From a virus: DNA of 42,673 bases. A program made the translations under genes and the position numbers. Shown one piece after another: positions 14,981 through 28,253 of this stretch (position 1 is the stretch's first letter; each line of letters begins with the position of its first letter). Below the pieces are notes generated by a model. That model did not search any database, was not told where the DNA came from, and worked only from the letters and a program-made list of their open reading frames with translations. Location of the stretch: positions 1 to 42,673 of the IMG/VR virus record IMGVR_UViG_3300031576_000123; one strand, written 5' to 3'.

Positions 14981-15009
14981 TTGACTCGATCGGTCTCAGG
15001 GCCTATACT
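14981..15009 (+). promoter_or_regulatory. Near-consensus sigma70 promoter for the early region (P1)
   Basis: TTGACT (14981-14986) and TATACT (15004-15009) are separated by exactly 17 bases, five of six consensus bases each. Transcription would begin about 15016-15017, the first base of a long inverted repeat. It faces the early genes from 15133 on and is back-to-back with the leftward regulator gene, forming a divergent control region. It is the best host-type promoter I see in the window. Confidence 0.8.
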
Positions 15010-15078
15010 CTGGTCATGCTGAGACACGCGAAACCTTGCCCGCCCGCCCCGACGCCGTTGCCTCTGCGCGTGTCTCAG
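14993..15078. promoter_or_regulatory. Three GTCTCAG/CTGAGAC elements around promoter P1 (candidate operators)
   Basis: GTCTCAG lies in the promoter spacer (14993-14999), its complement CTGAGAC just after the start point (15019-15025), and GTCTCAG again at 15072-15078. The first pair forms an inverted repeat centred on the -10 box. The second and third are part of the 14-bp inverted repeat of the leader. Placement across a promoter suggests repressor half-sites, possibly for the adjacent basic protein; alternatively copies two and three are constrained only by RNA pairing. Confidence 0.45.
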
Positions 15079-15107
15079 CAACTCGCCGTCGGCGCGGCGT
15101 CGGGCGG
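15017..15107 (+). ncRNA. Structured 5' leader with pseudoknot-like pairing (P1 leader)
   Basis: TGCTGAGACACGCG (15017-15030) is a perfect 14-bp inverted repeat of 15067-15080. The 36-base loop contains a C-rich segment (15044-15056) that can pair with 15096-15107 over 12 bp with one bulged C, giving an H-type pseudoknot topology. The first stem starts at the predicted transcription start, seven bases after the -10 box. The first gene's ribosome binding site (GGAGGA, 15123-15128) follows 15 bases later. It could be a regulatory leader, a stabilising 5' cap structure or a separate small RNA. Pairing is seen in sequence; function is unknown. Confidence 0.6.
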
Positions 15108-15132
15108 AAGCGGGGTCTTCGTGGAGGATTCG

Positions 15133-15315
15133 ATGCAGTTTCAGAAATTGGCCGTGCGGCCGAGACGCGACACGGTCGATGAGATCCGGGTCTACGTTGA
15201 CGCGCCCCGCGATTACCATCGCGCCACAATCGCCGATGTGAACACGCCCGACGGCGACTGCCGGGCGCGCGTCCTGGTCGCCAAACTCCGGAAGCTGGAG
15301 GCGGCCCATGTCTAG
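15133..15315 (+). CDS. First early gene; small protein of unknown function
   Basis: 60 residues from ATG 15133, with GGAGGA (15123-15128) upstream. An ATG at 15016, at the predicted transcription start, is in the same frame and would add 39 low-complexity residues read through the leader structure, so a leaderless second start is conceivable. The short form is a basic alpha/beta protein (strands around EIRVYVDAP and CRARVLVAKL). It overlaps the next gene by eight bases. Confidence 0.65.
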   Translation: MQFQKLAVRPRRDTVDEIRVYVDAPRDYHRATIADVNTPDGDCRARVLVAKLRKLEAAHV

Positions 15316-15679
15316 CCGCGAAATCACCACAACGGAAGGGAAGAAGTGCGCCGGGCGCTGCGATGAGGACATCATCCCCTCCGGAGCGAAGGCGACCGTC
15401 GACGACGATGGGTGGATCTACCACCCGGATTGCTACAGGGAACTCCAGCGCCAGGACGAGGAAGAGAGGCGCGCGGCGCAGGAGCCATCCGTCCAACTCG
15501 AAACGCTCGCCGTCTACCCAAGCGGATCGAAACCCGGCGTGACCTACAGCGTTACTCGTCAAGGCGTCGAACTCTCGTGCGACTGCCCCGGCTTCGTCAA
15601 CCGGAAGAAGTGCCGTCACGTCGACGAGATCCGCCGGACTCTCGACGCGGCACAACCCAAGGAGACGCCCGATGCGTGA
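15308..15679 (+). CDS. SWIM zinc-finger protein
   Basis: 123 residues from ATG 15308. An N-terminal treble-clef-like set (Cys14, Cys18, His39, Cys42) is followed by a Glu/Arg-rich helix (45-60) and a SWIM-type finger, CDC-x8-C-x-H (Cys91, Cys93, Cys102, His104). SWIM fingers bind nucleic acid or proteins. Being the second early gene, it may modify host functions or act with the recombination genes downstream. It overlaps its neighbours by eight bases on each side. Confidence 0.75.
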   Translation: MSSREITTTEGKKCAGRCDEDIIPSGAKATVDDDGWIYHPDCYRELQRQDEEERRAAQEPSVQLETLAVYPSGSKPGVTYSVTRQGVELSCDCPGFVNRKKCRHVDEIRRTLDAAQPKETPDA

Positions 15680-16019
15680 CATCGTCCACCTGCTGCATAC
15701 GATCGAAGACCGGGAATACGTCGTCACCTTTGAGCGCCTGCAAATCCCGAACTCGACGACGTACCGATTGGAGCGCATCGGAAAGGTGGTGGGCTCGCCG
15801 TCCATGGAAGACGCTCGGCCTTTTCCCTTCTGGCTCTGGAACGCCGAAGGTCTGACGCCGTCCGTGTTGGCGGGACTGGAGTCCGTCGCCTATGCGGTCG
15901 CGCGCCAAGTCGATCAGATCGAGCGGGCCGAGAAACTCGGTCGACGGCTTGAAGGCGCGGCCGAGAAACAATCGCAGTACGGGCGCGACGCCGAAGGGGA
16001 ATCCGGCCGGATCACTTGA
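15672..16019 (+). CDS. Early protein of unknown function
   Basis: 115 residues from ATG 15672, overlapping the SWIM gene. The N-terminal half is beta-rich (YVVTFERLQIPNSTTYRLER) and the second half is a long helix (VARQVDQIERAEKLGRRLEG). No recognised motif. A 75-base gap follows before the recombination genes. Confidence 0.65.
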   Translation: MRDIVHLLHTIEDREYVVTFERLQIPNSTTYRLERIGKVVGSPSMEDARPFPFWLWNAEGLTPSVLAGLESVAYAVARQVDQIERAEKLGRRLEGAAEKQSQYGRDAEGESGRIT

Positions 16020-16094
16020 CGCGACGCCGCGCCGAAGCTTCATTGATGTTTGCCCGGCAAGACGTCGGGCGGGGTTTCAAAAAAGGAGGATCGA

Positions 16095-16976
16095 ATGGGA
16101 GACGCTCCGGTCGTAATCGGTCACGCGCTCGCGACGTTCGGCACCGATGGCGGCCAGCGCCGCATGATCGCGCTGGCCGACGAGATGCGCGCCATGTGCG
16201 AAGAGAAGGCGCGGCAGAAAAACGCCTGGCTCGTCCAGATCGGGCCGAGCCGACATGCGAGGATCGAGGCGTGGCAGTATCTCGGCCAGCGCGCGGGCGT
16301 CGTCGCCCGTACCGTCGAGACCCGCGAGCTTCGGAATCCGGCCACGGGAGAATTCGAGGGCATCCTCGCGGTCGCAGAGGTCCAGCGGGTCGACAACGGC
16401 GACGTCATCGGCCGCGCCGAACAGGTATGCTATGCGGGCGAGGTGCTCCAAAAACGCGACGAAAAGCAAGCCGACGGGACATGGAAGATCGGCGAAATCT
16501 ACCGTCGATGGGACGGCCCCGACGGACTCCCCCAACGCCACGCGATCATCGGCATGGCGCAGACCCGCGCGCAGTCGCGGGCGCTCGCCAGCGTCCTCCG
16601 CTTCCTGATGGAGATGGCGGGAGTCGCGGGAACCCCCGCCGAGGAGATGGACGGCGTCACGCCCGAGGCCGACACCGAGATCAAGAAGCCCGAGTCGAAG
16701 TCGAAGGCCAACGTCGGCGGCGCACCGAAACCGAAGGGCGCTCATTCGTGGAGGGGCTTGATCGAGTCCATCGACATCAAAAAGGAAGGGACCAGCGACA
16801 AAGGGAAGTGGACGATTTGGTCCGTCAAGGGCGCGGATTTTCTCGGTCAGATCGTGTTCGACGGGAAGCTCATGGACGCCGCCGTTGACGCGGCGCAGAA
16901 GAAGCTCGAGGTCGTCATCGGCTACGACGACGGGAAGTACGGCCCCGAGATCAAGAGCATCGAGGTGGCGGCGTGA
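16095..16976 (+). CDS. Putative ssDNA-annealing recombinase with C-terminal OB-like domain
   Basis: 293 residues from ATG 16095, behind AAGGAGGATCGA. The first ~185 residues end with the pattern IGMAQTRAQSRALASVL...MEMAGVAGTPAEEM, a QTRA-x-SRAL helix found in phage annealase-like proteins related to the Rad52/Erf groups. A charged Pro/Lys linker (about 195-215) leads to a ~75-residue C-terminal part (HSWRGLIESIDIKKEG through EIKSIEVAA) that looks like an OB-fold. It overlaps a RecB-like exonuclease gene by four bases; an annealase-exonuclease pair is the usual phage recombination module. The family call is tentative; the single-strand-binding impression is firmer. Confidence 0.55.
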   Translation: MGDAPVVIGHALATFGTDGGQRRMIALADEMRAMCEEKARQKNAWLVQIGPSRHARIEAWQYLGQRAGVVARTVETRELRNPATGEFEGILAVAEVQRVDNGDVIGRAEQVCYAGEVLQKRDEKQADGTWKIGEIYRRWDGPDGLPQRHAIIGMAQTRAQSRALASVLRFLMEMAGVAGTPAEEMDGVTPEADTEIKKPESKSKANVGGAPKPKGAHSWRGLIESIDIKKEGTSDKGKWTIWSVKGADFLGQIVFDGKLMDAAVDAAQKKLEVVIGYDDGKYGPEIKSIEVAA

Positions 16977-17539
16977 CCGATTGGCCCCACGTCACCGGCG
17001 TCCTCAAGGGCGTCGGCCTGATCGACACGACCTTCCTCTCGGAGTTCGGCCGGGACCGCGGGACCGCCGTCCACCAAGCGACCGCGCTCGACGATGTCGC
17101 AGATCTCGACGAAGGGAGCGTCGACCCGCACGTCGCGCCGTACCTGGCGGCGTGGCGGCGATTCCGCGCGGAGTCGTCGCCGATCACGTTCCCAAAGATC
17201 GAGCACCGTGTCCGGCACGAACTCTATGGCTACCTTGGGACGGCCGACCGGGTCGCGCGCTTTCGAGGGTCCGATTGGGTCATCGATCTGAAGACCGGCG
17301 GCCCGGAGCCGTGGCACGCCCTGCAGCTCGCCGCCTACGCGCTCGCCTACTTAGGACGTACGTCCTTGGCGGGTTCTGGCGTTCGGTGCGCGGCTGTATA
17401 TCTCCGCGACGACGCGACGTATCGATTCATGCCGTACGAGGACTACTCCGATGGCGACGCCTGGTTGGTGGCGCTGTCGCTCTACAACTGGAAGCTCAAA
17501 CACGGTCTTTTGAAACCGGAGGTCCGCGATGTCATCTGA
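16973..17539 (+). CDS. RecB/Cas4-like PD-(D/E)XK exonuclease
   Basis: 188 residues from GTG 16973, overlapping the upstream stop (GTGA). The family signature is present: RGTAVHQAT with His34, GYLGTAD with Asp92, and VIDLKTG with Asp105 and Lys107, followed by HALQLAAYALAY, the QxxxY helix of RecB-type nucleases. It probably resects double-stranded ends for the annealase candidate next door, supporting recombination-dependent replication. It overlaps the following coiled-coil gene by 11 bases. Confidence 0.85.
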   Translation: MTDWPHVTGVLKGVGLIDTTFLSEFGRDRGTAVHQATALDDVADLDEGSVDPHVAPYLAAWRRFRAESSPITFPKIEHRVRHELYGYLGTADRVARFRGSDWVIDLKTGGPEPWHALQLAAYALAYLGRTSLAGSGVRCAAVYLRDDATYRFMPYEDYSDGDAWLVALSLYNWKLKHGLLKPEVRDVI

Positions 17540-18206
17540 ACTGACGATCGTCAAGCCCGATACGTCGGAGATCGAAGCCGAGGCGCACGCACTCGTCGCG
17601 CGGGCCGAGGCCCTCGTGATCGGAACGGCCGCCGACGCCAAAAGCGCCGACGACCTTCTGCGCTTCGCCGTCGCCGGTCAACGCCGGGGCAAGGAAATCA
17701 TGCGACCCGCGGTCGATGCGGGACACAAGGCCCATAAAGCGGCGCTCGCGGCCGAGGCCGAGTTGATCGCCCCTTTCAGGCGGGCCGAGGCGATCGTTTC
17801 GCCGAAGCTCCTGACGTTCAAGCGCGCCGAGGAAGCCAAGGCCCGGGAGCGCGAGGCCGAGATCCGGCGGCAGCAGCAGAAGGAGGCCGAGGAGCGCCGA
17901 CTGGCCGACGCCGTCGCGCTCGAAGCCCGGGGCGCGGAGCGCGACGAAGTCGACGCGGCGCTGTCGGCCCCGCTCCCGACGCCGCCTCCCGTCATCATGG
18001 CGCCCGCCGCGCCCAAGCTCGAATCGGTGAACGCCGTCCAGGTGACGTGGCGGTTCCGCATCACCGACCCGAATCTCCTGCCGCGCGAGTATCTGATTCC
18101 AGACCAGTCGGCGCTCGACGCCATCGCCCGGGCACAGAAGGGCCAGACCCGCATCCCCGGAGGCGAGGCGTACGCCGTCGAATCCCTGAAGCTGAAGCGA
18201 ACCTAG
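17529..18206 (+). CDS. Coiled-coil protein of the recombination module
   Basis: 225 residues from ATG 17529. A long Ala/Glu/Arg/Lys-rich helix spans about residues 15-145, ending in a Pro-rich linker. The C-terminal ~60 residues (VTWRFRITDPNLLPREYLIPD, then IPGGEAYAVESLKLKR) match a conserved domain I associate with phage genes next to RecT or exonuclease genes. Its biochemical role is not known to me. It is the last gene before the terminator at 18231-18293. Confidence 0.7.
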   Translation: MSSELTIVKPDTSEIEAEAHALVARAEALVIGTAADAKSADDLLRFAVAGQRRGKEIMRPAVDAGHKAHKAALAAEAELIAPFRRAEAIVSPKLLTFKRAEEAKAREREAEIRRQQQKEAEERRLADAVALEARGAERDEVDAALSAPLPTPPPVIMAPAAPKLESVNAVQVTWRFRITDPNLLPREYLIPDQSALDAIARAQKGQTRIPGGEAYAVESLKLKRT

Positions 18207-18230
18207 TCCACGAAGGCGGCGCGATCGCGT

Positions 18231-18293
18231 AGGCCGCGCCGGGCCGCCGCACGAAACTAAAGCGCGTGCGGCGGATCGTTGCGGCCTTTTTTT
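18231..18293 (+). terminator. Intrinsic terminator with double stem
   Basis: An outer stem AGGCCGC/GCGGCCT (18231-18237 with 18281-18287) encloses a perfect 10-bp stem CCGCCGCACG/CGTGCGGCGG (18244-18253 with 18265-18274), and the structure runs straight into seven Ts (18287-18293). This is a convincing factor-independent terminator closing the recombination transcript. The T-tract ends one base before the next gene's ribosome binding site (AAGGAGGATCGA, 18295-18306), so read-through would be needed to express the downstream block from P1. Confidence 0.8.
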
Positions 18294-18306
18294 GAAGGAG
18301 GATCGA

Positions 18307-18624
18307 ATGGACATCGCGAAGCTGTACGAGAACGTGCGGACGTGGATTCCGAACCAGGATTTCACGATCACAGTCGAGGTCGAGTACAAGAAGGCGACCG
18401 AATGCCGCGCCTGTGAAATGAAGCACGAAGGGCGCCTGGCGAGCGTCCTGTTCCTCGTCAAGCGGTGGACGGGCTCCACCTGGGAAACCTGGAAAGGCCA
18501 GACTCCCGAGGCGGTCTTGAAGATGATGGACGGAACAACGATGGCCGCCAAGGTGACAGACCTGAAGGATCTCGGGGAGGTGCCGGTCGCCGTGACAGCG
18601 TCCGCTATCGAGAAAGAACCATGA
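18307..18624 (+). CDS. Early protein of unknown function
   Basis: 105 residues from ATG 18307, directly behind the AAGGAGGATCGA ribosome binding site. Beta-rich with ECRACE (about residues 33-38) and tryptophans at WIPNQDF and TWETWKGQ. No recognised family. It is the first gene after the terminator, and its stop overlaps the next ATG (ATGA). Confidence 0.65.
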   Translation: MDIAKLYENVRTWIPNQDFTITVEVEYKKATECRACEMKHEGRLASVLFLVKRWTGSTWETWKGQTPEAVLKMMDGTTMAAKVTDLKDLGEVPVAVTASAIEKEP

Positions 18625-18908
18625 CGCCCCGGGCGGGACCGGACCTGGGTTGCTCCGGGGGGGCTCCGGCCCGCCGCCTGGCGCAGCGGTCTAAAACGTG
18701 GGGAACGGATCGAATGGCGATCGGGGTAGGCGAAAGTGTGATGAACGCGAGTAGCCGAGGGGTCCGTAGGCCGCTGCGCTTGGCGATGGGCCGACTTTTG
18801 AAAGAGGATCTCATGGAGACGATCTGGAAGTTCGAGGCGCCGTGCGTTGACGACGGGGTCGGGGCCGTGTGGTCGAGCGTGGCGGGCGGAAATGGAGAAC
18901 ACCGATGA
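18621..18908 (+). CDS. Uncertain small ORF; start at 18621 or 18813
   Basis: From ATG 18621 (ATGA overlap) the frame gives 95 residues whose first 60 are Arg/Gly-rich and not protein-like. From ATG 18813, behind AAAGAGGATCTC, it gives a 31-residue acidic peptide beginning METIWKFEAP. The stop overlaps the next start (18905). I favour the short form being translated, with 18621-18812 possibly untranslated. Confidence 0.4.
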   Translation: MTPRAGPDLGCSGGAPARRLAQRSKTWGTDRMAIGVGESVMNASSRGVRRPLRLAMGRLLKEDLMETIWKFEAPCVDDGVGAVWSSVAGGNGEHR

Positions 18909-19090
18909 AGATCCGAAAGCTGATTAGGTTGTGGGCCGTCGCGTGCACGAACGGGACGACGCATTTTCACGCATCGGATAGTAAGCGCGAGGTGATGGGC
19001 GATTGGTACGAACTCAGACACGAGTCCTATTCGTGCGGCCCCCACCGCCTCGTCAAACTCGTCGAGCGCAAGGCAAGGAGGAACCGATGA
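18905..19090 (+). CDS. Small early protein of unknown function
   Basis: 61 residues from ATG 18905, overlapping the previous stop and the next start by four bases each. Basic; one segment (RLWAVACTNGTTHFHASD) alternates hydrophobic and polar residues, followed by a Lys/Arg tail. No recognised family. Confidence 0.55.
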   Translation: MKIRKLIRLWAVACTNGTTHFHASDSKREVMGDWYELRHESYSCGPHRLVKLVERKARRNR

Positions 19091-19344
19091 ACAATCCAAA
19101 GACGCAAGACAACGGCGGCCCGGCGTTCCCGGTGAGTGACTTGAGCAAGACGCAAGTCCCCGGCATGACCCTGCGCGACTACTTCGCGGCGAAGGCGATG
19201 CAGGCGCATTTTATCATGGACGCCATCGTCTGTAATCCTCCGGGCAGAGACGCTTGCGATATGCAGGACAACGACTCGATCGCACGGGAAGCGTACCGGA
19301 CCGCCGACGCCATGCTCCGGGCGCGGGAGGTGACAAGTGAGTGA
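19087..19344 (+). CDS. GMTLRDYFAAKA-family phage protein
   Basis: 85 residues from ATG 19087. It carries the NGGPAFP near residue 9 and PGMTLRDYFAAKAMQ (about 25-39) of a small protein family widespread in phages of Gram-negative bacteria, function unknown. The rest is helical with a few cysteines. It overlaps the next gene by eight bases. Confidence 0.75.
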   Translation: MNNPKTQDNGGPAFPVSDLSKTQVPGMTLRDYFAAKAMQAHFIMDAIVCNPPGRDACDMQDNDSIAREAYRTADAMLRAREVTSE

Positions 19345-19714
19345 CCCTCTAACCCCCGCCGAACTCGCCGCGATCAAGGCGCGAGCGGACGCCGCGACGC
19401 CGGGGCCGTGGAGTAGGGCTAACCCAATTTCGCCTCGACTTGTCACCTGCGAAGGCCATCCTCTGCTCACGTTATCGAGTGTGGAAAATCGACTTGTTCG
19501 GCGTAAAGACGGGAGAATCGTAGTCGGAGAAGACGAAAATTTCATCGCCGCATCCCGCGAGGACGTCCCGCGCTTGGTCGCGGAGATCGAGCGTCTCCAG
19601 AGGGTGGAGAAGGCGGCGAGGGCGATTGAGGCCGCGCCGTGGGGAATTGCTTTAGGCGACTTGGCGAATTTACGCGCCGCCCTCGCGGGCGAGGAGGAAT
19701 CTAAAAATGGATGA
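19337..19714 (+). CDS. LTPAELAAIKARADAATPGPW-type phage protein
   Basis: 125 residues from GTG 19337. The opening (PLTPAELAAIKARADAATPG, then PW) and the later NFIAASREDVPRLVAEIERL pattern define a common phage family of unknown function. The segment between them is variable, and here it is less GC-rich (19430-19550). It overlaps the following gene by eight bases. Confidence 0.75.
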   Translation: MSDPLTPAELAAIKARADAATPGPWSRANPISPRLVTCEGHPLLTLSSVENRLVRRKDGRIVVGEDENFIAASREDVPRLVAEIERLQRVEKAARAIEAAPWGIALGDLANLRAALAGEEESKNG

Positions 19715-19982
19715 ACTTTGGAGCATCTTGGCGAACGGACCTGCGGTGACTTGGGCCGATAATGGAAGGCCGAATGTGCCTGACGAACTTCTGGAGGACT
19801 TGCGCCGGTTTGTATCCAAGGCCGAAAAGCGCGGGGCGATGGAGGCGCTGGAGAAGATGAGGGACACCGTCAAACATTGGCACGACAATTCATTCACGCG
19901 ACCCTTGGAAGAGCGATCCGCTTTGTTCGCGATTTTGAAAAAGCTGGACGATGAGATCGCCCGGCGCAAGGAGCCCTCATGA
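19707..19982 (+). CDS. Small early helical protein of unknown function
   Basis: 91 residues from ATG 19707. Mostly helical with charged heptad-like segments (about residues 30-55 and 70-88). No motif recognised. Overlaps both neighbours (ATGA at 19979). Confidence 0.6.
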   Translation: MDELWSILANGPAVTWADNGRPNVPDELLEDLRRFVSKAEKRGAMEALEKMRDTVKHWHDNSFTRPLEERSALFAILKKLDDEIARRKEPS

Positions 19983-20287
19983 CCCCCAACGAGTTCGCGG
20001 ATCGGTTCTGCCGTGGGGAACATGGATGCCGATGGCACGGGCCTGAGTCGATATACGTGGACACTGCGTCATTTGGGCCATGCCCCCTCGCCGCCGCCTT
20101 CGAGCGCGAGATCGAGGCGCGAGCGTGGATCATTGAGAATATGACGCTTGTAGACATAGCTACCAAAAGAGAGATTCCCGAAATAGTCATAGCCGCACTA
20201 AACAAGGCAAGACGTCAATTCGCCTCCGCGATCCGCACCCGAAGCTCGCGGGGAGACGAGGCAAGCAAGGAGGACAAGCGTGAATAA
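19979..20287 (+). CDS. Small early protein of unknown function
   Basis: 102 residues from ATG 19979. The N-terminal ~40 residues contain CRGEHGCRWHGPES with Cys and His that might bind metal. The rest is helical and ends in a Lys/Arg/Glu tail. No family recognised. The gene is locally less GC-rich than the genome. Confidence 0.6.
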   Translation: MTPNEFADRFCRGEHGCRWHGPESIYVDTASFGPCPLAAAFEREIEARAWIIENMTLVDIATKREIPEIVIAALNKARRQFASAIRTRSSRGDEASKEDKRE

Positions 20288-20495
20288 ATGCATTCGCCGT
20301 CCTCGTTGCGGACACCCAAACGCAGTCCGACTTGGGTATACCATCATAAGAGAATGGGGTTATCGATGCGTTCACTTGGTGGGTTACACGCCTACTGTTG
20401 CGCCCCACGATGAATGGACGTGCGAGTGTCCATGCCACAGGATGTCATGGTCGCAGTCCCAAGCCAAACAGGAGGCCAAGCATGACAAACCTTAG
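20280..20495 (+). CDS. Small Cys/His-rich protein, probable zinc binder
   Basis: 71 residues from GTG 20280 overlapping the upstream stop. CIRRPRCGH near the N-terminus and TCECPCH near residue 50 give two Cys/His clusters suggestive of a zinc finger. Function unknown. Confidence 0.6.
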   Translation: MNKCIRRPRCGHPNAVRLGYTIIREWGYRCVHLVGYTPTVAPHDEWTCECPCHRMSWSQSQAKQEAKHDKP

Positions 20496-20817
20496 CCCGG
20501 AGGCGCTGGCGGTGGAGGCAATCACCGCTTGTGAATGGCATCCTCGAACGCCGAACAAACTCTACCGAATGGCCTGCGCCGGTTGCATCAAGGACGCCAT
20601 CGAGCGGGACCGCGCCGCACGAACGCTCCCGCCTGAGGTCGAGAAACTGCTCAAGGAAATGTACGATGCGATCCATGAGGTTAAGACGAACTGCGAGGAT
20701 CAACGAAACGGGGATTTCATCATCGGAAAAGGCGTGATGGAAATGATCTGTGGTGCTGATTTTGAGTTCGAGTGCTTCGCCGCGGCGCGGAAGGAGACGG
20801 GCCATGCCGATCCGTAG
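20482..20817 (+). CDS. Small early protein of unknown function
   Basis: 111 residues from ATG 20482, with GGAGG ten bases before it. Helical, with CEWHPRTPN and MACAGC near the N-terminus that may bind a metal ion. Overlaps the neighbouring genes by 14 bases on both sides. Confidence 0.6.
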   Translation: MTNLSPEALAVEAITACEWHPRTPNKLYRMACAGCIKDAIERDRAARTLPPEVEKLLKEMYDAIHEVKTNCEDQRNGDFIIGKGVMEMICGADFEFECFAAARKETGHADP

Positions 20818-21022
20818 GACGATGAAACTTCCTCGCGGCTCCTACACCTGCTCCCGCTGTGGCCTCGCGAAGCCGCCGGAGGCGAAATGGTGCGGGCTCT
20901 GTCAGGAGAGGATCGACCGGCGGCGGATGATCGCGAGAAGCCGAATCCGCGTCGCCGTGAAAATCTTCGGAGAGATGCGTGAGGACGCGCCTTATGCGGG
21001 GGACGATGAAGACCAAACATAA
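20804..21022 (+). CDS. Small zinc-ribbon protein
   Basis: 72 residues from ATG 20804. CSRCG and CGLC (about residues 16-33) form a compact four-cysteine ribbon, followed by an Arg-rich helix (RIDRRRMIARSRIRVAVK). Probably nucleic-acid- or protein-binding. Confidence 0.65.
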   Translation: MPIRRTMKLPRGSYTCSRCGLAKPPEAKWCGLCQERIDRRRMIARSRIRVAVKIFGEMREDAPYAGDDEDQT

Positions 21023-21194
21023 ATCTCGTCCTCTCTACGTCGTGTGCAACGGCGAACGCTACAACGCGACGAAAGTTGCGGCGGAATTCAAGTCGGGGAA
21101 AAGCATCGAGAGACTTGGCCGCGAGTTCGATTTGTGGGAACCGCAGGTACAGGAGATTATTCGCCGCGTCATGCGGAGGGAGGATCGTCGATGA
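21006..21194 (+). CDS. Small helix-turn-helix-like protein
   Basis: 62 residues from ATG 21006 (an in-frame ATG lies three codons upstream). The segment AAEFKSGKSIERLGREFDLW followed by a basic helix resembles the helical core of DUF433-like or simple HTH proteins, with a basic tail. It may bind DNA; the assignment is tentative. Confidence 0.5.
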   Translation: MKTKHKSRPLYVVCNGERYNATKVAAEFKSGKSIERLGREFDLWEPQVQEIIRRVMRREDRR

Positions 21195-21394
21195 ACCCCT
21201 GTTGCCGCCGCGAGCGCCGCGCCGTGCTGAGGCGGGTCTATGATGCGATCCGCGAAGATGCCCGAGATTTATCGCTGTGGGCCGCGACTGGTTGTCATGG
21301 GAAATGTTGTGATCAGGATCGCCGATTCGAGAGGCAGATGGCCCGCGAACTGCGGCGGCAGGCCGCGATCGTCAGGGGGATGATGCGGCTATGA
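21191..21394 (+). CDS. Small Arg/Cys-rich protein of unknown function
   Basis: 67 residues from ATG 21191 (ATGA overlap). An N-terminal CC pair, a GCHGKCC cluster in the middle and long Arg-rich helices. Could be a small metal-binding protein. No family recognised. Confidence 0.55.
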   Translation: MNPCCRRERRAVLRRVYDAIREDARDLSLWAATGCHGKCCDQDRRFERQMARELRRQAAIVRGMMRL

Positions 21395-21425
21395 AGCGCG
21401 CCGCCAAAGACGGGCAGGGGAATTC

Positions 21426-21905
21426 GTGATCGCCGCTGTCCCAAAAAAGAAACGCCGCGCCCCCGTTTGGCTCGCGGGCCGGTCGATGGCCCTCTTGCGG
21501 TCGAAGGGCTACCTTGTCGGCAAGGTCGAGCGATTCATCCCCGGCCGCAAGATCCGCATCGACTTGTACGGGATCGCCGACGTTGAAGCGATCGGCGGCG
21601 GCGTTCCGGGGGTGCTCTATGTCCAGGTGTGCCGAGCCAAGGACATGGGCGAGCACGAACTGAAGATCCTCGGCGGAGAGCTGACGAAGACGCACAAAGA
21701 AGAGCGGCGGGCGGCCCGGCGCCGCAAGGCCGCGATTGCGATCTTGGAGCACGACAACCGGATCGTTATCCACGGGTGGGAACGCCGCGGCGACCCGAAG
21801 CGGTGGGAACTTCGCACCCGCCGCCTGGGGCTCGGCCAAGTGAAGGGCGGGGCGCGGCTGCTGATTTGGGAGGATGTCCGGCCTTTTGAGGCCGCATGGC
21901 CGTGA
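21426..21905 (+). CDS. PD-(D/E)XK-like nuclease-fold protein
   Basis: 159 residues from GTG 21426. The pattern RSKGYLVGKVERFIPGRKIR, IDLYGIADVEAI, VLYVQVC, and later IVIHGWERRG with WELR matches a phage/prophage family in which D-(F/Y)-G-x-x-D...Q-V is a degenerate PD-(D/E)XK core (Asp near 49 and 54, Glu near 56, Gln near 69). A role in recombination or DNA processing before replication is likely. The strict Glu-x-Lys is replaced by Gln-Val-Cys, so catalysis is uncertain. Confidence 0.65.
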   Translation: MIAAVPKKKRRAPVWLAGRSMALLRSKGYLVGKVERFIPGRKIRIDLYGIADVEAIGGGVPGVLYVQVCRAKDMGEHELKILGGELTKTHKEERRAARRRKAAIAILEHDNRIVIHGWERRGDPKRWELRTRRLGLGQVKGGARLLIWEDVRPFEAAWP

Positions 21906-21914
21906 ACTTTTTTT
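21879..21914 (+). terminator. Weak terminator-like hairpin at the end of the nuclease gene
   Basis: CGGCCT/AGGCCG (21879-21884 with 21889-21894) closes on a TTTG loop, and an alternative GGCC-GCAT-GGCC hairpin (21890-21901) ends six bases before seven Ts (21908-21914). Either could terminate transcription just ahead of promoter P2. Stems are short, so efficiency would be partial. Confidence 0.35.
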
Positions 21915-21934
21915 GCCGATTCTGGACGCATCGC

Positions 21935-21962
21935 TTGATCGGCCTCGGGCCGTGCGTAGAAT
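21935..21962 (+). promoter_or_regulatory. Sigma70-like promoter P2 before the replication genes
   Basis: TTGATC (21935-21940), 16 bases, TAGAAT (21957-21962). Four of six and five of six consensus bases. It includes an ATCGGCCTCGGGC stretch similar to the ATCGGTCTCAGGGC stretch in P1. The -10 box ends exactly seven bases before the 5' arm of the inverted repeat at 21970, the same distance as in P1. Confidence 0.55.
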
Positions 21963-21969
21963 CCCCGGC

Positions 21970-22059
21970 GGTGAAGAGATCCTCGCCACCCCTCCCCCTC
22001 GTCGACCAGACGGGCTTCCTCCTGCGCTGGTCTCTTCACCAAGCGGGGGGGCGGGGTGG
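21970..22059 (+). ncRNA. Structured leader with pseudoknot-like pairing (P2 leader)
   Basis: GGTGAAGAGA (21970-21979) pairs perfectly with TCTCTTCACC (22031-22040). Its 51-base loop holds a C-rich run (21986-21998) complementary, with one mismatch in 13, to the G-rich run 22047-22059. The loop also contains CCTCC (22018-22022), which could cover the GGAGG (22067-22071) that serves the replication gene at 22078. A short open frame (GTG 21971, or ATG 21896) runs through the structure and stops at 22079-22081, overlapping the start of that gene. Together this suggests a translation-sensitive leader. Sequence pairing is observed; function is inferred. Confidence 0.5.
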
Positions 22060-22077
22060 GGGGGATGGAGGCGCCGC

Positions 22078-23184
22078 GTGAAGTTCGAAGATGTCTGGGT
22101 GGCCGTTCGATCGAATCTTACGAACCATCCCAAGCTGTCGAGACTTTCCGACCTTCTCAAGACGAATAAAATCAAGGCGCTTGGTCACCTGGTTTGCCTT
22201 TGGCTCTACGCACAGAAGTATCGCGCAGATGGCGACCTGACGGGCTGGGATGATCATTTAGTGGCCAGCGCCGCGGAGTGGAAGGGAAACGCCTCAAGGT
22301 TCGTCTCTGCGCTTCTGGAGGCCGGTTTCTTGGATGATGTGGAAGGCCAGCGACTAATCCACGATTGGGAGGGCCACGGTGGTCGGCTGCGGGAACTCTG
22401 GGAATCCACCAAGGAGGCGACCAAGGTGCGCCAGCAGCTCCACCGCGATAAAAAACGAATCCCGATTCTCAGGGCCAACGGGAATCGTTGCGCCTACTGC
22501 GGGCGCCAGCTTGAGGATCGGGAATTCCAAATCGACCACGTCGTCCCTATCAAGCGGGGGGGGAGAAACGAACCGGAAAACGTGGTTCCATGCTGCCCAC
22601 CTTGTAATTACTCAAAGAGTAATCGGACCCCGGACGAAGCTGGCATGAAAGTAACGCGGTGCCAACCGAGTAACGAGCCGTATGTGCGTGACGCGGTGAC
22701 TCAGAATCCACCGGATAACGCAATCCCTGTTCATCTTAATCTAGGTCTGTCTGTATCCGAACAGGATGGGGGAGCGGGGGAAGGATTCCAAGACCATGGA
22801 ACGAGTCGCGGACAGCCGCTCAACCAGTTCCCGGATTGGGTCTTCGCCGTAGAAGAATACCTCGCCAAGAACCCCGACGAGCGGCCACACCGCCGCGACG
22901 TAATGGACAAGTTCAACCTCCTTCGCGACTTCTTGAAGGTGTCGCTTGCCGATGTTCGCCTCCTGATCGCCGACAACCAGCGACGACCTGGCAATCGGTT
23001 CAAATTCTACGAGGTTTTCAAGACCGGCGCTGCGGCCAACGGCTCGCCGCCGCCGCCTCCCAAAATCGGGGGGCTGTCGACGTCGACGCTTCTGGCGATC
23101 GCCAACGCCGATCGCATCGCCGGAACCGAACAGGAGCGGATCGCCGAGGTGCTCCGGCGTTACCCTCCCGAGGCCAAGTCGTGA
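22078..23184 (+). CDS. Replication-initiator-like protein with an in-line HNH domain
   Basis: 368 residues from GTG 22078 with GGAGG six bases upstream. Residues 1-105 resemble the winged-helix N-domain of phage replisome organisers (short helices, GHLVCLWLYAQKYRADGDL, LLEAGFLDD). Residues 129-182 are a complete HNH nuclease module: Cys138/Cys141, IDHVVPI with His154, Asn168 and CCPPCNYSK. The C-terminal part (about 250-368) is helical like the rest of an initiator. The HNH and following stretch (22480-22760) are less GC-rich than the flanks, suggesting later acquisition. The next gene overlaps as GTGA and looks like a helicase loader, which supports a replication role. Confidence 0.7.
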   Translation: MKFEDVWVAVRSNLTNHPKLSRLSDLLKTNKIKALGHLVCLWLYAQKYRADGDLTGWDDHLVASAAEWKGNASRFVSALLEAGFLDDVEGQRLIHDWEGHGGRLRELWESTKEATKVRQQLHRDKKRIPILRANGNRCAYCGRQLEDREFQIDHVVPIKRGGRNEPENVVPCCPPCNYSKSNRTPDEAGMKVTRCQPSNEPYVRDAVTQNPPDNAIPVHLNLGLSVSEQDGGAGEGFQDHGTSRGQPLNQFPDWVFAVEEYLAKNPDERPHRRDVMDKFNLLRDFLKVSLADVRLLIADNQRRPGNRFKFYEVFKTGAAANGSPPPPPKIGGLSTSTLLAIANADRIAGTEQERIAEVLRRYPPEAKS

Positions 23185-24715: not shown

Positions 24716-25116
24716 AGCGCCCCATCTTCTACCGTGACCCCGCGTCCACCGAACTCTTCGCCGTGAATTCGGACCCGGCGCTGCCCGCGCCTTCCGCCGC
24801 CGCACTCGGCCGGGACATCACGGAGAACTACCACGGCGGCGCGGAGACGTCGGTCTCGGCGCACGCCTCCACGTCGGCCGAGCATCGGGCCGCGACGTGC
24901 AGGCGGATTCTCGACCGGATCGCGATCGCCCCCGAGGGAATCACCGCCGACGAGCTGGAGGGGAACCTCGGGATGCTCCACCAATCCTGCAGCGCGCGGA
25001 TCTCGGAACTCCTGGCGGCCGGGGCGATCCGTCACAGCGGCAAGCGCAAGACCCGAACGGGCCGCATGGCCCGAATCTATTTTCTCGCGACACCTGATTT
25101 ACAGGAGCGCGCATGA
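24712..25116 (+). CDS. Winged-helix DNA-binding-like protein
   Basis: 134 residues from ATG 24712. After a variable ~50-residue N-terminus comes a winged-helix pattern: CRRILDRIAIAPEGITADEL, HQSCSARISELLAAGAIRHS, GKRKTRTGRMARIYFL. This resembles small phage wHTH proteins in which the SARISEL helix is the recognition helix. It could regulate middle or late transcription. It overlaps the GroES gene by four bases. Confidence 0.65.
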   Translation: MKRPIFYRDPASTELFAVNSDPALPAPSAAALGRDITENYHGGAETSVSAHASTSAEHRAATCRRILDRIAIAPEGITADELEGNLGMLHQSCSARISELLAAGAIRHSGKRKTRTGRMARIYFLATPDLQERA

Positions 25117-25415
25117 GTAACGAGAAGCTCGATCCTATGGACGGCCGCGTGGTCGTTCGCCAGGTGCAGGACCCGGACAAGAGCCCGGGCGGCATCCTGA
25201 TTCCCGAGACCGCCAAGAAGATCCCGACGCGCGGGACGGTGTTGGCCGTCGGCCGCGGCCGGATGCTGGAGACCGGCGTGCGGATGGAACTGGCCCTGAA
25301 GGTGGGGGACGTCGTCGTATTTCCGAAGTACGCGGGCGCCGAGATCGACATCGAGGGCGTCAAGCTGAAGATCCTCGAGGACCGGGAAATCCTGGCGCGG
25401 GTCGTGGCCGAATGA
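25113..25415 (+). CDS. groES: GroES-family co-chaperonin
   Basis: 100 residues from ATG 25113, the full length of GroES (about 95-100). The N-terminal PMDGRVVVRQ strand, the mobile loop DKSPGGILIPETAKKIPTRG (about 22-41) with its Gly-Gly-Ile-Leu-Ile GroEL-binding tip, the VLAVGRGR turn, and VGDVVVFPKYAGAEI are all present. No GroEL gene is in the window, so it would pair with host GroEL to form a folding chamber, as T4 gp31 does, probably for a capsid or tail protein. The gene overlaps both neighbours by four bases. Confidence 0.95.
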   Translation: MSNEKLDPMDGRVVVRQVQDPDKSPGGILIPETAKKIPTRGTVLAVGRGRMLETGVRMELALKVGDVVVFPKYAGAEIDIEGVKLKILEDREILARVVAE

Positions 25416-25714: not shown

Positions 25715-25953
25715 TGCGCTTGACCGAGGAAGACGTCGACGAGATCCGAAGGTGGATCGCCTGGTCGATCCAAAGGGGTGGATGCTTGCCCGTGTGGGCG
25801 TGCTATCAGTTGCGGGCGTGCGATCCGGCGTCCGGGCGTCCAAAGGTCATCGATTTCACCTTCGTCGACGTCGGCGGAACTCCCCGATACGAGAGCATTC
25901 AAGAAGCTGAAATCAAAGGCAAGCGCCACGCCACCCTGGAGTTTACGTTGTGA
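25711..25953 (+). CDS. Small protein of unknown function
   Basis: 80 residues from GTG 25711 (GTGA) or 79 from ATG 25714. An N-terminal helix (TEEDVDEIRRWIAWSIQ) and a beta-rich remainder with two cysteines. It sits ahead of the ParB-methyltransferase gene and overlaps it by four bases. No family recognised. Confidence 0.6.
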   Translation: MMRLTEEDVDEIRRWIAWSIQRGGCLPVWACYQLRACDPASGRPKVIDFTFVDVGGTPRYESIQEAEIKGKRHATLEFTL

Positions 25954-27137
25954 ACATCGAAGAGGTTGCCCTTGACCGTCTGAAGCCGTGGGACGGCAAT
26001 CCCAGAAAGACCCACGCCGTCGAAGCGATTGCCCGGAGCATCAGCCAGTTCGGATACACGGCGCCGATTATCGTCCAGAAGGGAACCTACCGAATCCTCG
26101 CCGGGCACGGCCGCCTCGAGGCACTCCGGCACCTGAAGCGCGACAAGGCGTCCGTCATCGTCGTGGACTTGTCCGATTCCGACGCCGCGCTCTACACGCT
26201 GGCCGACAATCAAATCGCCGCGACATCCGAGTGGGACTTCCCCAAGCTCGCCCGGACCCTCAAGGATCTCGACGACTTAGGGGCGGACGTGTCGCTCTCC
26301 GGTTTCACGCCGGGCCAGCTCGATCGACTGTCAAGTTGGACGCCGTTCGACGACGACGAAGAGCCGCCGGTCCCGGCAGAGCTTCCCGCCAAGCCGATCA
26401 CGCGCCCGGGCGACGTCTGGACGTGCGGCCGTCATCTTCTCGCCTGCGGCGACTGCCGCCAGCCGCTCGACGTCGCGCGTGTGCTCGGCAAGGATCGGGC
26501 ACAGCTCATGATCACGGACCCGCCGTATTGCTCCGGCAGTTTCCAAGAGGCGGGCAAGGCCGCCGGGACCTGGGGCGACATCGCCAGCGACAACCTCTCG
26601 ACGCGCGGATACATTGCGCTTATGCGATCCATGCTGGCGACGGCGCGCGTCCAGACCTCCTACATCTTCACGGACTGGCGGATGTGGATTCCGCTCTTCG
26701 ACGTCACAGATTCGTCCGGTCTGGCCGTGCGGTCGATGATCGTGTGGGACAAGGGAACGCCCGGGCTCGGCGCCCTCTGGCGCACCCAACACGAGATTGT
26801 CATGTTCGCCAGTCGCACGGGCAACCGGCGCCAGAAGGGGATGCCGTCGCGCGGCAACGTCCTAAAGTCCAAGCGCACGGGCAACGTCCATCACTACACC
26901 GAAAAGCCCGTAGACCTGATCCAAGAAATCATCAAAGGCGACGAACCCTCGGGCCGGAAGGACTGCCCGATCTACGACCCGTTCTGCGGTTCTGGCTCTA
27001 CGCTTTTGGCGGCCGAGCGCCAAGGTCGCCGGGCGCTCTGCATGGACGTCGAGCCGCGTTGGGTCGACGTCGCCGTGCGGCGCTGGCAGGCCATGACCGG
27101 CAAGAAGGCCCACAACCCGGACCGTAAGATCGAATGA
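25950..27137 (+). CDS. ParB/Srx-fold - DNA methyltransferase fusion
   Basis: 395 residues from GTG 25950. Residues 1-120 are a ParB N-terminal-like nuclease/NTP-binding domain (LKPWDGNPRK, then YRILAGHGRLEAL). Residues 150-390 are a beta-class amino-methyltransferase with DPPY (190-193) and DPFCGSGS (343-350). Such fusions are common in phages and prophages and usually act without a restriction partner. It is the second methyltransferase in this genome, distinct from the one at 13197. It overlaps the HAD gene by four bases. Confidence 0.9.
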   Translation: MNIEEVALDRLKPWDGNPRKTHAVEAIARSISQFGYTAPIIVQKGTYRILAGHGRLEALRHLKRDKASVIVVDLSDSDAALYTLADNQIAATSEWDFPKLARTLKDLDDLGADVSLSGFTPGQLDRLSSWTPFDDDEEPPVPAELPAKPITRPGDVWTCGRHLLACGDCRQPLDVARVLGKDRAQLMITDPPYCSGSFQEAGKAAGTWGDIASDNLSTRGYIALMRSMLATARVQTSYIFTDWRMWIPLFDVTDSSGLAVRSMIVWDKGTPGLGALWRTQHEIVMFASRTGNRRQKGMPSRGNVLKSKRTGNVHHYTEKPVDLIQEIIKGDEPSGRKDCPIYDPFCGSGSTLLAAERQGRRALCMDVEPRWVDVAVRRWQAMTGKKAHNPDRKIE

Positions 27138-27794: not shown

Positions 27795-28253
27795 ATTCTT
27801 CAGGCGTTCGAATCGCTCAGGTCCAAGCACGTCGGCTACCTGATCGGGTGCGCCCGGAAGTTCTCGGCGGATTTGTACCGCGAAGACGAGCTGGAGCAGT
27901 TGGCCTTGATCGTCCTGTGGAAGATCGCCAAGCGCGTCGACACTCTGGACCACCGGCGGACGTACATGGTTAGTTGTCTCCACAACGCGATGATCGACGA
28001 AGTGCGTTCGCGTCGCAAGCATCCGGCCTTCGCGTTGTTTTCCACGCTCATGAACCCGGAGGTCTCGGCGTCGTACACGGACACCCAGGAACGCATCGCC
28101 GCCCGCGACGACTTGGAAGCTGTCTTGAAGTCCGCGTCGACGCGGCCGATCTTGCCGGGCCTTCGCTCCGGCGTGCGTCGCAAGATTCAAGCGGAACTCC
28201 GGCGCCCGCCCAAGCCGCCGCGGCGCCGACGGCCGGTAAAGTCCTTGCAATAG
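27795..28253 (+). CDS. Sigma-70 region 2-like factor lacking region 4; probable non-AUG start
   Basis: The conserved frame begins well upstream of its first usual start (TTG 27873). Read from ATT 27795, behind AAGGGG (27781-27786), it gives 152 residues. Residues 2-65 follow sigma region 2: LQAFESLRSKHVGYLIGCAR, DELEQLALIVLWKIAKRVD, HRRTYMVSCLHNAMIDEVRS, RRKH. The tail is basic (Pro/Arg/Lys-rich) and has no helix-turn-helix region 4. Region-2-only sigma factors exist and need a partner for the -35 element. Its place directly before the terminase genes suggests it directs late transcription. ACG 27789 is another possible start, or the ATG was lost by variation. Confidence 0.65.
   Translation: MLQAFESLRSKHVGYLIGCARKFSADLYREDELEQLALIVLWKIAKRVDTLDHRRTYMVSCLHNAMIDEVRSRRKHPAFALFSTLMNPEVSASYTDTQERIAARDDLEAVLKSASTRPILPGLRSGVRRKIQAELRRPPKPPRRRRPVKSLQ

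Follow-up and report, generated by a model that had tools for sequence, protein, structure and literature searches.

The window, by which we mean the whole stretch of DNA analysed, is the 42,673-base linear virus record IMGVR_UViG_3300031576_000123. It belongs to an unclassified tailed phage, with genes for terminase, portal, head morphogenesis and head protease at 29–38 kb, and we found no near kin of it in the collections searched. Because its best terminase relatives are at most 43% identical, and the portal of the one terminase relative compared is unrelated to that of the window, no close kin were available for an analysis of covariation. Among the fetched loci, no other window protein gave a close tie to any.

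The early region contains a RecT-position gene (named by comparison with how genes are ordered in a Shewanella phage), a PD-(D/E)XK exonuclease gene and, from 22078, a fusion of a replication initiator with an HNH nuclease. Two promoter-leader units are found here. The first, U1, precedes a 60-aa early gene that has no match in PHROG or Pfam, and the second, U2, precedes the initiator gene (Table 1). On the best explanation of the region, the promoter of U1 (P1) drives the recombination operon and that of U2 (P2) drives the replication initiator operon. Several other genes on the + strand deserve mention. The second early gene (15308–15679) encodes a CDCPGFVNRKKCRH stretch that by eye is like a SWIM zinc finger, with no Pfam hit. 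A phage-encoded Cpn10/GroES co-chaperonin (25113–25415; Pfam 3.5e-26) is nearest to planctomycete copies, at 43% identity among the 14 genomes compared. It is followed by a DNA methyltransferase with a fused ParB-like N-terminus (25950–27137) and, shortly before the packaging genes, by a gene (27873–28253) with a weak match to Sigma-70 region 2 that is under the cut-off (E 2.7e-4); this is possibly a late-gene Sigma factor.

Table 1. Positions of the two promoter-leader units and of associated features in the window
Feature	Position	Strand	Details and basis
Small ribbon-helix-helix (RHH)-like protein, divergent from P1	14750–14917	-	55 aa; NikA-like Pfam match, 21.2 bits, beneath the cut-off of 27
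Promoter P1	14981–15009	+	-35 TTGACT (14981–14986), 17-nt spacer, -10 TATACT (15004–15009); consensus scan
Shared element GATCGGTCTCAGG in P1, candidate operator	14988–15000	+	Exact match of GATCGGYCTCRGG
U1 hairpin S1	15017–15080	+	Arms 15017–15030 and 15067–15080, 14 perfect pairs; fold z -4.65
U1 pairing S2, possible pseudoknot with S1	15044–15107	+	Loop strand 15044–15057 with 15095–15107; 13 pairs, one bulge
U1 ribosome binding site (RBS)	15123–15127	+	GGAGG; sequence
First early gene after U1	15123–15315, including RBS	+	ATG 15133; 60 aa
Strong intrinsic terminator inside P1 operon, right before RBS of the gene at 18307	18231–18294	+	Hairpin of -39.8 kcal/mol, then U run
Promoter P2	21935–21962	+	-35 TTGATC, 16-nt spacer, -10 TAGAAT; consensus scan
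Shared element GATCGGCCTCGGG in P2, overlapping the -35	21937–21949	+	Exact match of GATCGGYCTCRGG
U2 hairpin S1	21970–22040	+	Arms 21970–21981 and 22029–22040, 10 perfect pairs plus U-G and C-G; fold z -4.06
U2 pairing S2	21986–22059	+	C-rich loop strand 21986–21998 with G-rich 22047–22059; 12 pairs, one mismatch
U2 RBS	22067–22071	+	GGAGG; sequence
Replication initiation protein with HNH nuclease domain	22078–23184	+	GTG 22078; phrog_9474 1e-24, HNH Pfam

P1 and P2 are good predicted σ70-like promoters. P1 matches the consensus at 10 of 12 hexamer positions, is the top + strand promoter in the scanned region and has an A/T-rich stretch 5ʹ of it; P2 matches at 9 of 12. The start sites of both transcripts are predicted positions, 7 nt past the -10 box, where transcripts usually start. 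In both units a long hairpin, S1, begins exactly there. Its loop is C-rich (~50% C), and G makes up 48% (U1) and 74% (U2) of the stretch after the stem. All of the elements listed in a preliminary description of the locus (both promoters, the 7-base gap, the stem arms, the C-rich loops, the G-rich partners, the RBSs and the start codons) were found in place. As a separate observation, the RBS context GGAGGATCGAATGG recurs in the early-operon gaps 16017–16094 and 18204–18306 (+ strand), and it is also near that of U1, GGAGGATTCGATG.

In a shuffled window, 0.05 perfect 14-bp stems like that of U1 are expected, against 5.65 stems of 10 bp like that of U2. The shorter stem is common in its own right, though not when it must lie exactly at +1. 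A joint descriptor, consisting of a promoter, a stem near +1 and pairing of the loop downstream, gave eight hits on both strands of 5.56 Mb: U1, U2 and six others that have weaker or worse-spaced promoters and lie mostly in AT-rich DNA.

The preliminary description regarded the two units as sequence-unrelated, with a conserved geometry that pointed to a functional RNA or a common regulatory device. Our alignments contradict the first part. Aligned globally, U1 and U2 are identical at 99 of 140 columns, end to end, a similarity that exceeds both unblocked and block-preserving shuffles (p<0.0005). When the start codons are left out, the alignment scores 45, whereas block-preserving shuffles average 6.9 (sd 8.5). 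No other window segment out of 27,950 aligns as well to U1 and only 3 of 27,932 to U2. The top local matches are collinear and nearly equally spaced; they cover the promoter, the C-rich loop, the closing arm with the G-rich stretch, and the RBS. The promoter element is the best-conserved part. For the leader alone, 23 of 28,032 window segments score as high against U1 and 2 of 28,016 against U2, and p is 0.003–0.007 in block shuffles. The similarity is thus strong for the whole unit and suggestive for the leader alone, and U1 and U2 are probably diverged copies from an old duplication of one promoter-leader cassette. Searching the window with a covariance model built from both revealed no third copy. 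With the sequences being related, the argument from conserved geometry with divergent sequence falls, and common descent explains much of the geometry. The idea of a common regulatory device at the two early promoters is supported by the shared promoter element, the shared hairpin position and the end-to-end similarity.

In a structure-blind alignment, S1 of U1 and S1 of U2 occupy the same columns. Of the nine pairs in common, five are unchanged, one is changed on one side, three are double-compensated and none is broken. When the S1 partner is slid by 1–3 columns as a control, pairing falls to 35–44%. This level of covariation was reached by 62 of 500 shuffles and, coming from two sequences, it is support for S1 and not proof.

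The pairing of the S1 loop with the G-rich stretch, S2, differs more between the units, and its register is not alike in the two. This pairing had been claimed for both; it is beyond chance in U1 (p 0.005–0.01 against shuffles) but not beyond base composition in U2 (p 0.23–0.25). S1 is the best fold while the RNA is 64–88 nt (U1) or 72–80 nt (U2) long. Once the G-rich stretch has been transcribed, nested models favour a long extended S2 hairpin over a pseudoknot of S1 and S2, so S1 may be transient. The two may also coexist as a pseudoknot. The RBS is mostly unpaired in both leader models.

The preliminary description also noted a stretch common to both promoters. Indeed, GATCGGYCTCRGG occurs exactly twice in the window, once in P1 and once in P2. 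Its spacing to the -35 and -10 differs between the two, so it is not just promoter consensus. We consider it a possible operator, and common descent alone could account for its being shared. The RHH-like protein encoded beside P1 gives a single-sequence AF2 model of two helices, with CopG as the best likeness (Foldseek probability 0.85), which is non-significant at E 0.48. We guess that this protein is a candidate repressor acting on the shared element.

No homologues of the units emerged from the viral, phage and bacterial sequences searched. Rfam gave no match to any family for the whole window at the gathering threshold, and chance-level hits only at relaxed thresholds. Exact and gapped DNA patterns for the stem, the promoter and the stem core gave 0, 5 and 22 hits, respectively, in a viral contig collection; the five fall in coding sequence or are chance matches, and the 22 include nothing like the unit, by model or by eye. 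One candidate locus, L230, which has GATCGGTCTCAGG with a GTGAGACT hairpin, was rejected because it lacks a correctly spaced -10, is situated beyond an ATPase-like gene and does not fit the model. The two-unit covariance model found nothing above chance in 100 fetched loci, 18 whole virus records and 1,388 bacterial genomes from four phyla. Six weak planctomycete hits (22.9–31.2 bits) are of chance strength for 392 genomes, and in the four planctomycete alignments shown little of the fold is preserved. When both units were compared by BLASTN with 50,697 phage records, only short chance pieces matched. Five phage replication-initiator relatives have no comparable leader 5ʹ of the initiator, and their genes overlap or are at most about 90 nt apart. 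The P2 cassette is therefore not general to the initiator gene, since these five distant relatives pack it behind its neighbour. A lack of comparable units in relatives had been named in advance as counting against a common device. That is partly what we found, but the absence of homologues is weak evidence because every available relative is remote. A new early-control system, as had been suggested, was not demonstrated.

What could be the function of two such leaders? We infer a function as RNA from the two copies in one genome. We propose that one cassette, now two diverged copies, serves the recombination operon and the replication initiator operon, and that P1 and P2 would be switched together through GATCGGYCTCRGG, perhaps by the divergent RHH-like protein. 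In the nascent RNA, S1 would fold first and leave almost no free 5ʹ end, thereby shielding the early mRNA from 5ʹ-end-dependent decay. The G-rich stretch would next pair with the S1 loop, which would lock the fold and adjust access to the nearby RBS. We give this model as a whole, that is, a duplicated cassette of promoter and leader in which a putative operator is shared and a 5ʹ-flush hairpin protects and tunes early mRNAs, a probability of about 40%. The 5ʹ-protection reading is preferred because it explains the feature that the two copies share best: in each unit S1 begins at the predicted 5ʹ end, which is the position needed for 5ʹ-terminal protection. 5ʹ-terminal stem-loops stabilise mRNA in the studies of Emory (1992), Bouvet (1992) and Arnold (1998), as cited in PMC3997798, and a 5ʹ-flush stem is, by the references given there, a known requirement for protecting bacterial mRNA from 5ʹ-end-dependent decay. 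Bacillus RppH requires unpaired 5ʹ nucleotides (PMC3997798). If the leaders act as RNA, copying one cassette would be a compact means for a phage to bring its two early operons under a common start signal and a common treatment at the RNA level.

The main alternative explanation, which we regard as somewhat unlikely, is that the leaders are cis-acting antiterminator RNAs like HK022 put, and carry RNAP through terminators of both early operons. This would fit a leader in two copies, one per early promoter, with a predicted start at the 5ʹ end of its own transcript, as in putL (PMC9378689). It would also fit the terminator within the P1 operon (18231–18294), which is the strongest terminator-like site in the window, and the proteins scanned, among which no N or Q homologue was seen. 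However, that terminator could simply lower expression of the distal genes, and we found no + strand terminator of like strength downstream of P2, which leaves P2 without evident need of an antiterminator. Moreover, put needs no exact placement at +1, putR being about 270 nt downstream, and the second pairing of the window leaders uses the loop of the first. Downstream of the P1-operon terminator, the untranslated gap 18664–18796 (+ strand) forms a single, very long stem when folded (-71.7 kcal/mol, z -4.4 versus shuffles), and could be an unrecognised structured RNA of the early operon.

Alternatively, the fold could be a translational switch, in which pairing of the loop with the G-rich stretch near the RBS either activates or prevents translation of the first gene. 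The signal would possibly be a phage protein or an antisense RNA, as in the repZ pseudoknot of IncI/IncB plasmids and T4 gene 32. The G-rich partner is separated from the RBS downstream of it by 8 nt in U2 and 16 nt in U1, U2 is 5ʹ of a replication initiator, as in repZ, and the growing RNA alternates between S1-first and extended-S2 folds. Set against this are the composition-level S2 pairing in U2, the mainly unpaired RBSs, and a - strand scan that found no antisense promoter at the units; we think such a switch improbable. A switch that sequesters the RBS in U2 is not proposed, as the modelled GGAGG is unpaired in an internal loop.

It is also conceivable, with little weight in our judgement, that the units act only as DNA, as two copies of a promoter that have an operator in common. 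The hairpins and C/G-rich tracts would then be remnants of the duplication, or would belong to an origin or a protein-binding site. The greater conservation of the promoter element, the weaker similarity of the leader alone and the location of the very G-rich U2 beside the replication initiator are consistent with this. However, chance hardly yields a 14-bp perfect stem at +1, and S1 pairing has been kept by three double changes. Returning to RNA function, a more far-reaching reading strikes us as doubtful: the cassette would represent a new family of cis-acting phage leader RNAs, copied between operons as a unit, in which the +1 hairpin grows into a large pseudoknot as the transcript lengthens and modifies RNAP or the ribosome in both early operons.

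The units resemble parts of several known systems. As in CopG/Arc-type RHH repressor circuits, a small RHH-like gene adjoins P1 and a short DNA element is common to both promoters; unlike in those circuits, binding of the element is here a guess and the RHH assignment is weak. As in ompA/papA-type 5ʹ-terminal stabilising stem-loops, a stable stem is predicted at or beside the first transcribed base. Those are host leaders, whereas the stem described here is duplicated before two phage operons and has a loop with a downstream complement. In the repZ leaders of IncI-alpha/IncB plasmids, as may be the case in U2, a hairpin loop pairs just 5ʹ of the RBS of a replication initiator. In repZ, a short pairing is combined with a leader peptide and an antisense RNA; none of these was seen at the window units, and the gene behind U1 is an unrelated one.

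The HK022 group is the best-known example of protein-free RNA control at both early operons. HK022 putL and putR are cis-acting leader RNAs, as the window units may also be. Like these units, they are present in two copies at early phage promoters, one copy per early operon, and mutually related in sequence. They differ in consisting of two adjacent stem-loops with almost no spacer, about 70 nt in all, which are bound to the zinc-binding domain of RNAP beta-prime. The folds of the window units have no such tandem stem-loops, but one long S1 stem whose loop is able to pair downstream. If the window units do act as RNA, they would be an independent, differently folded case, and the strategy would have evolved more than once.
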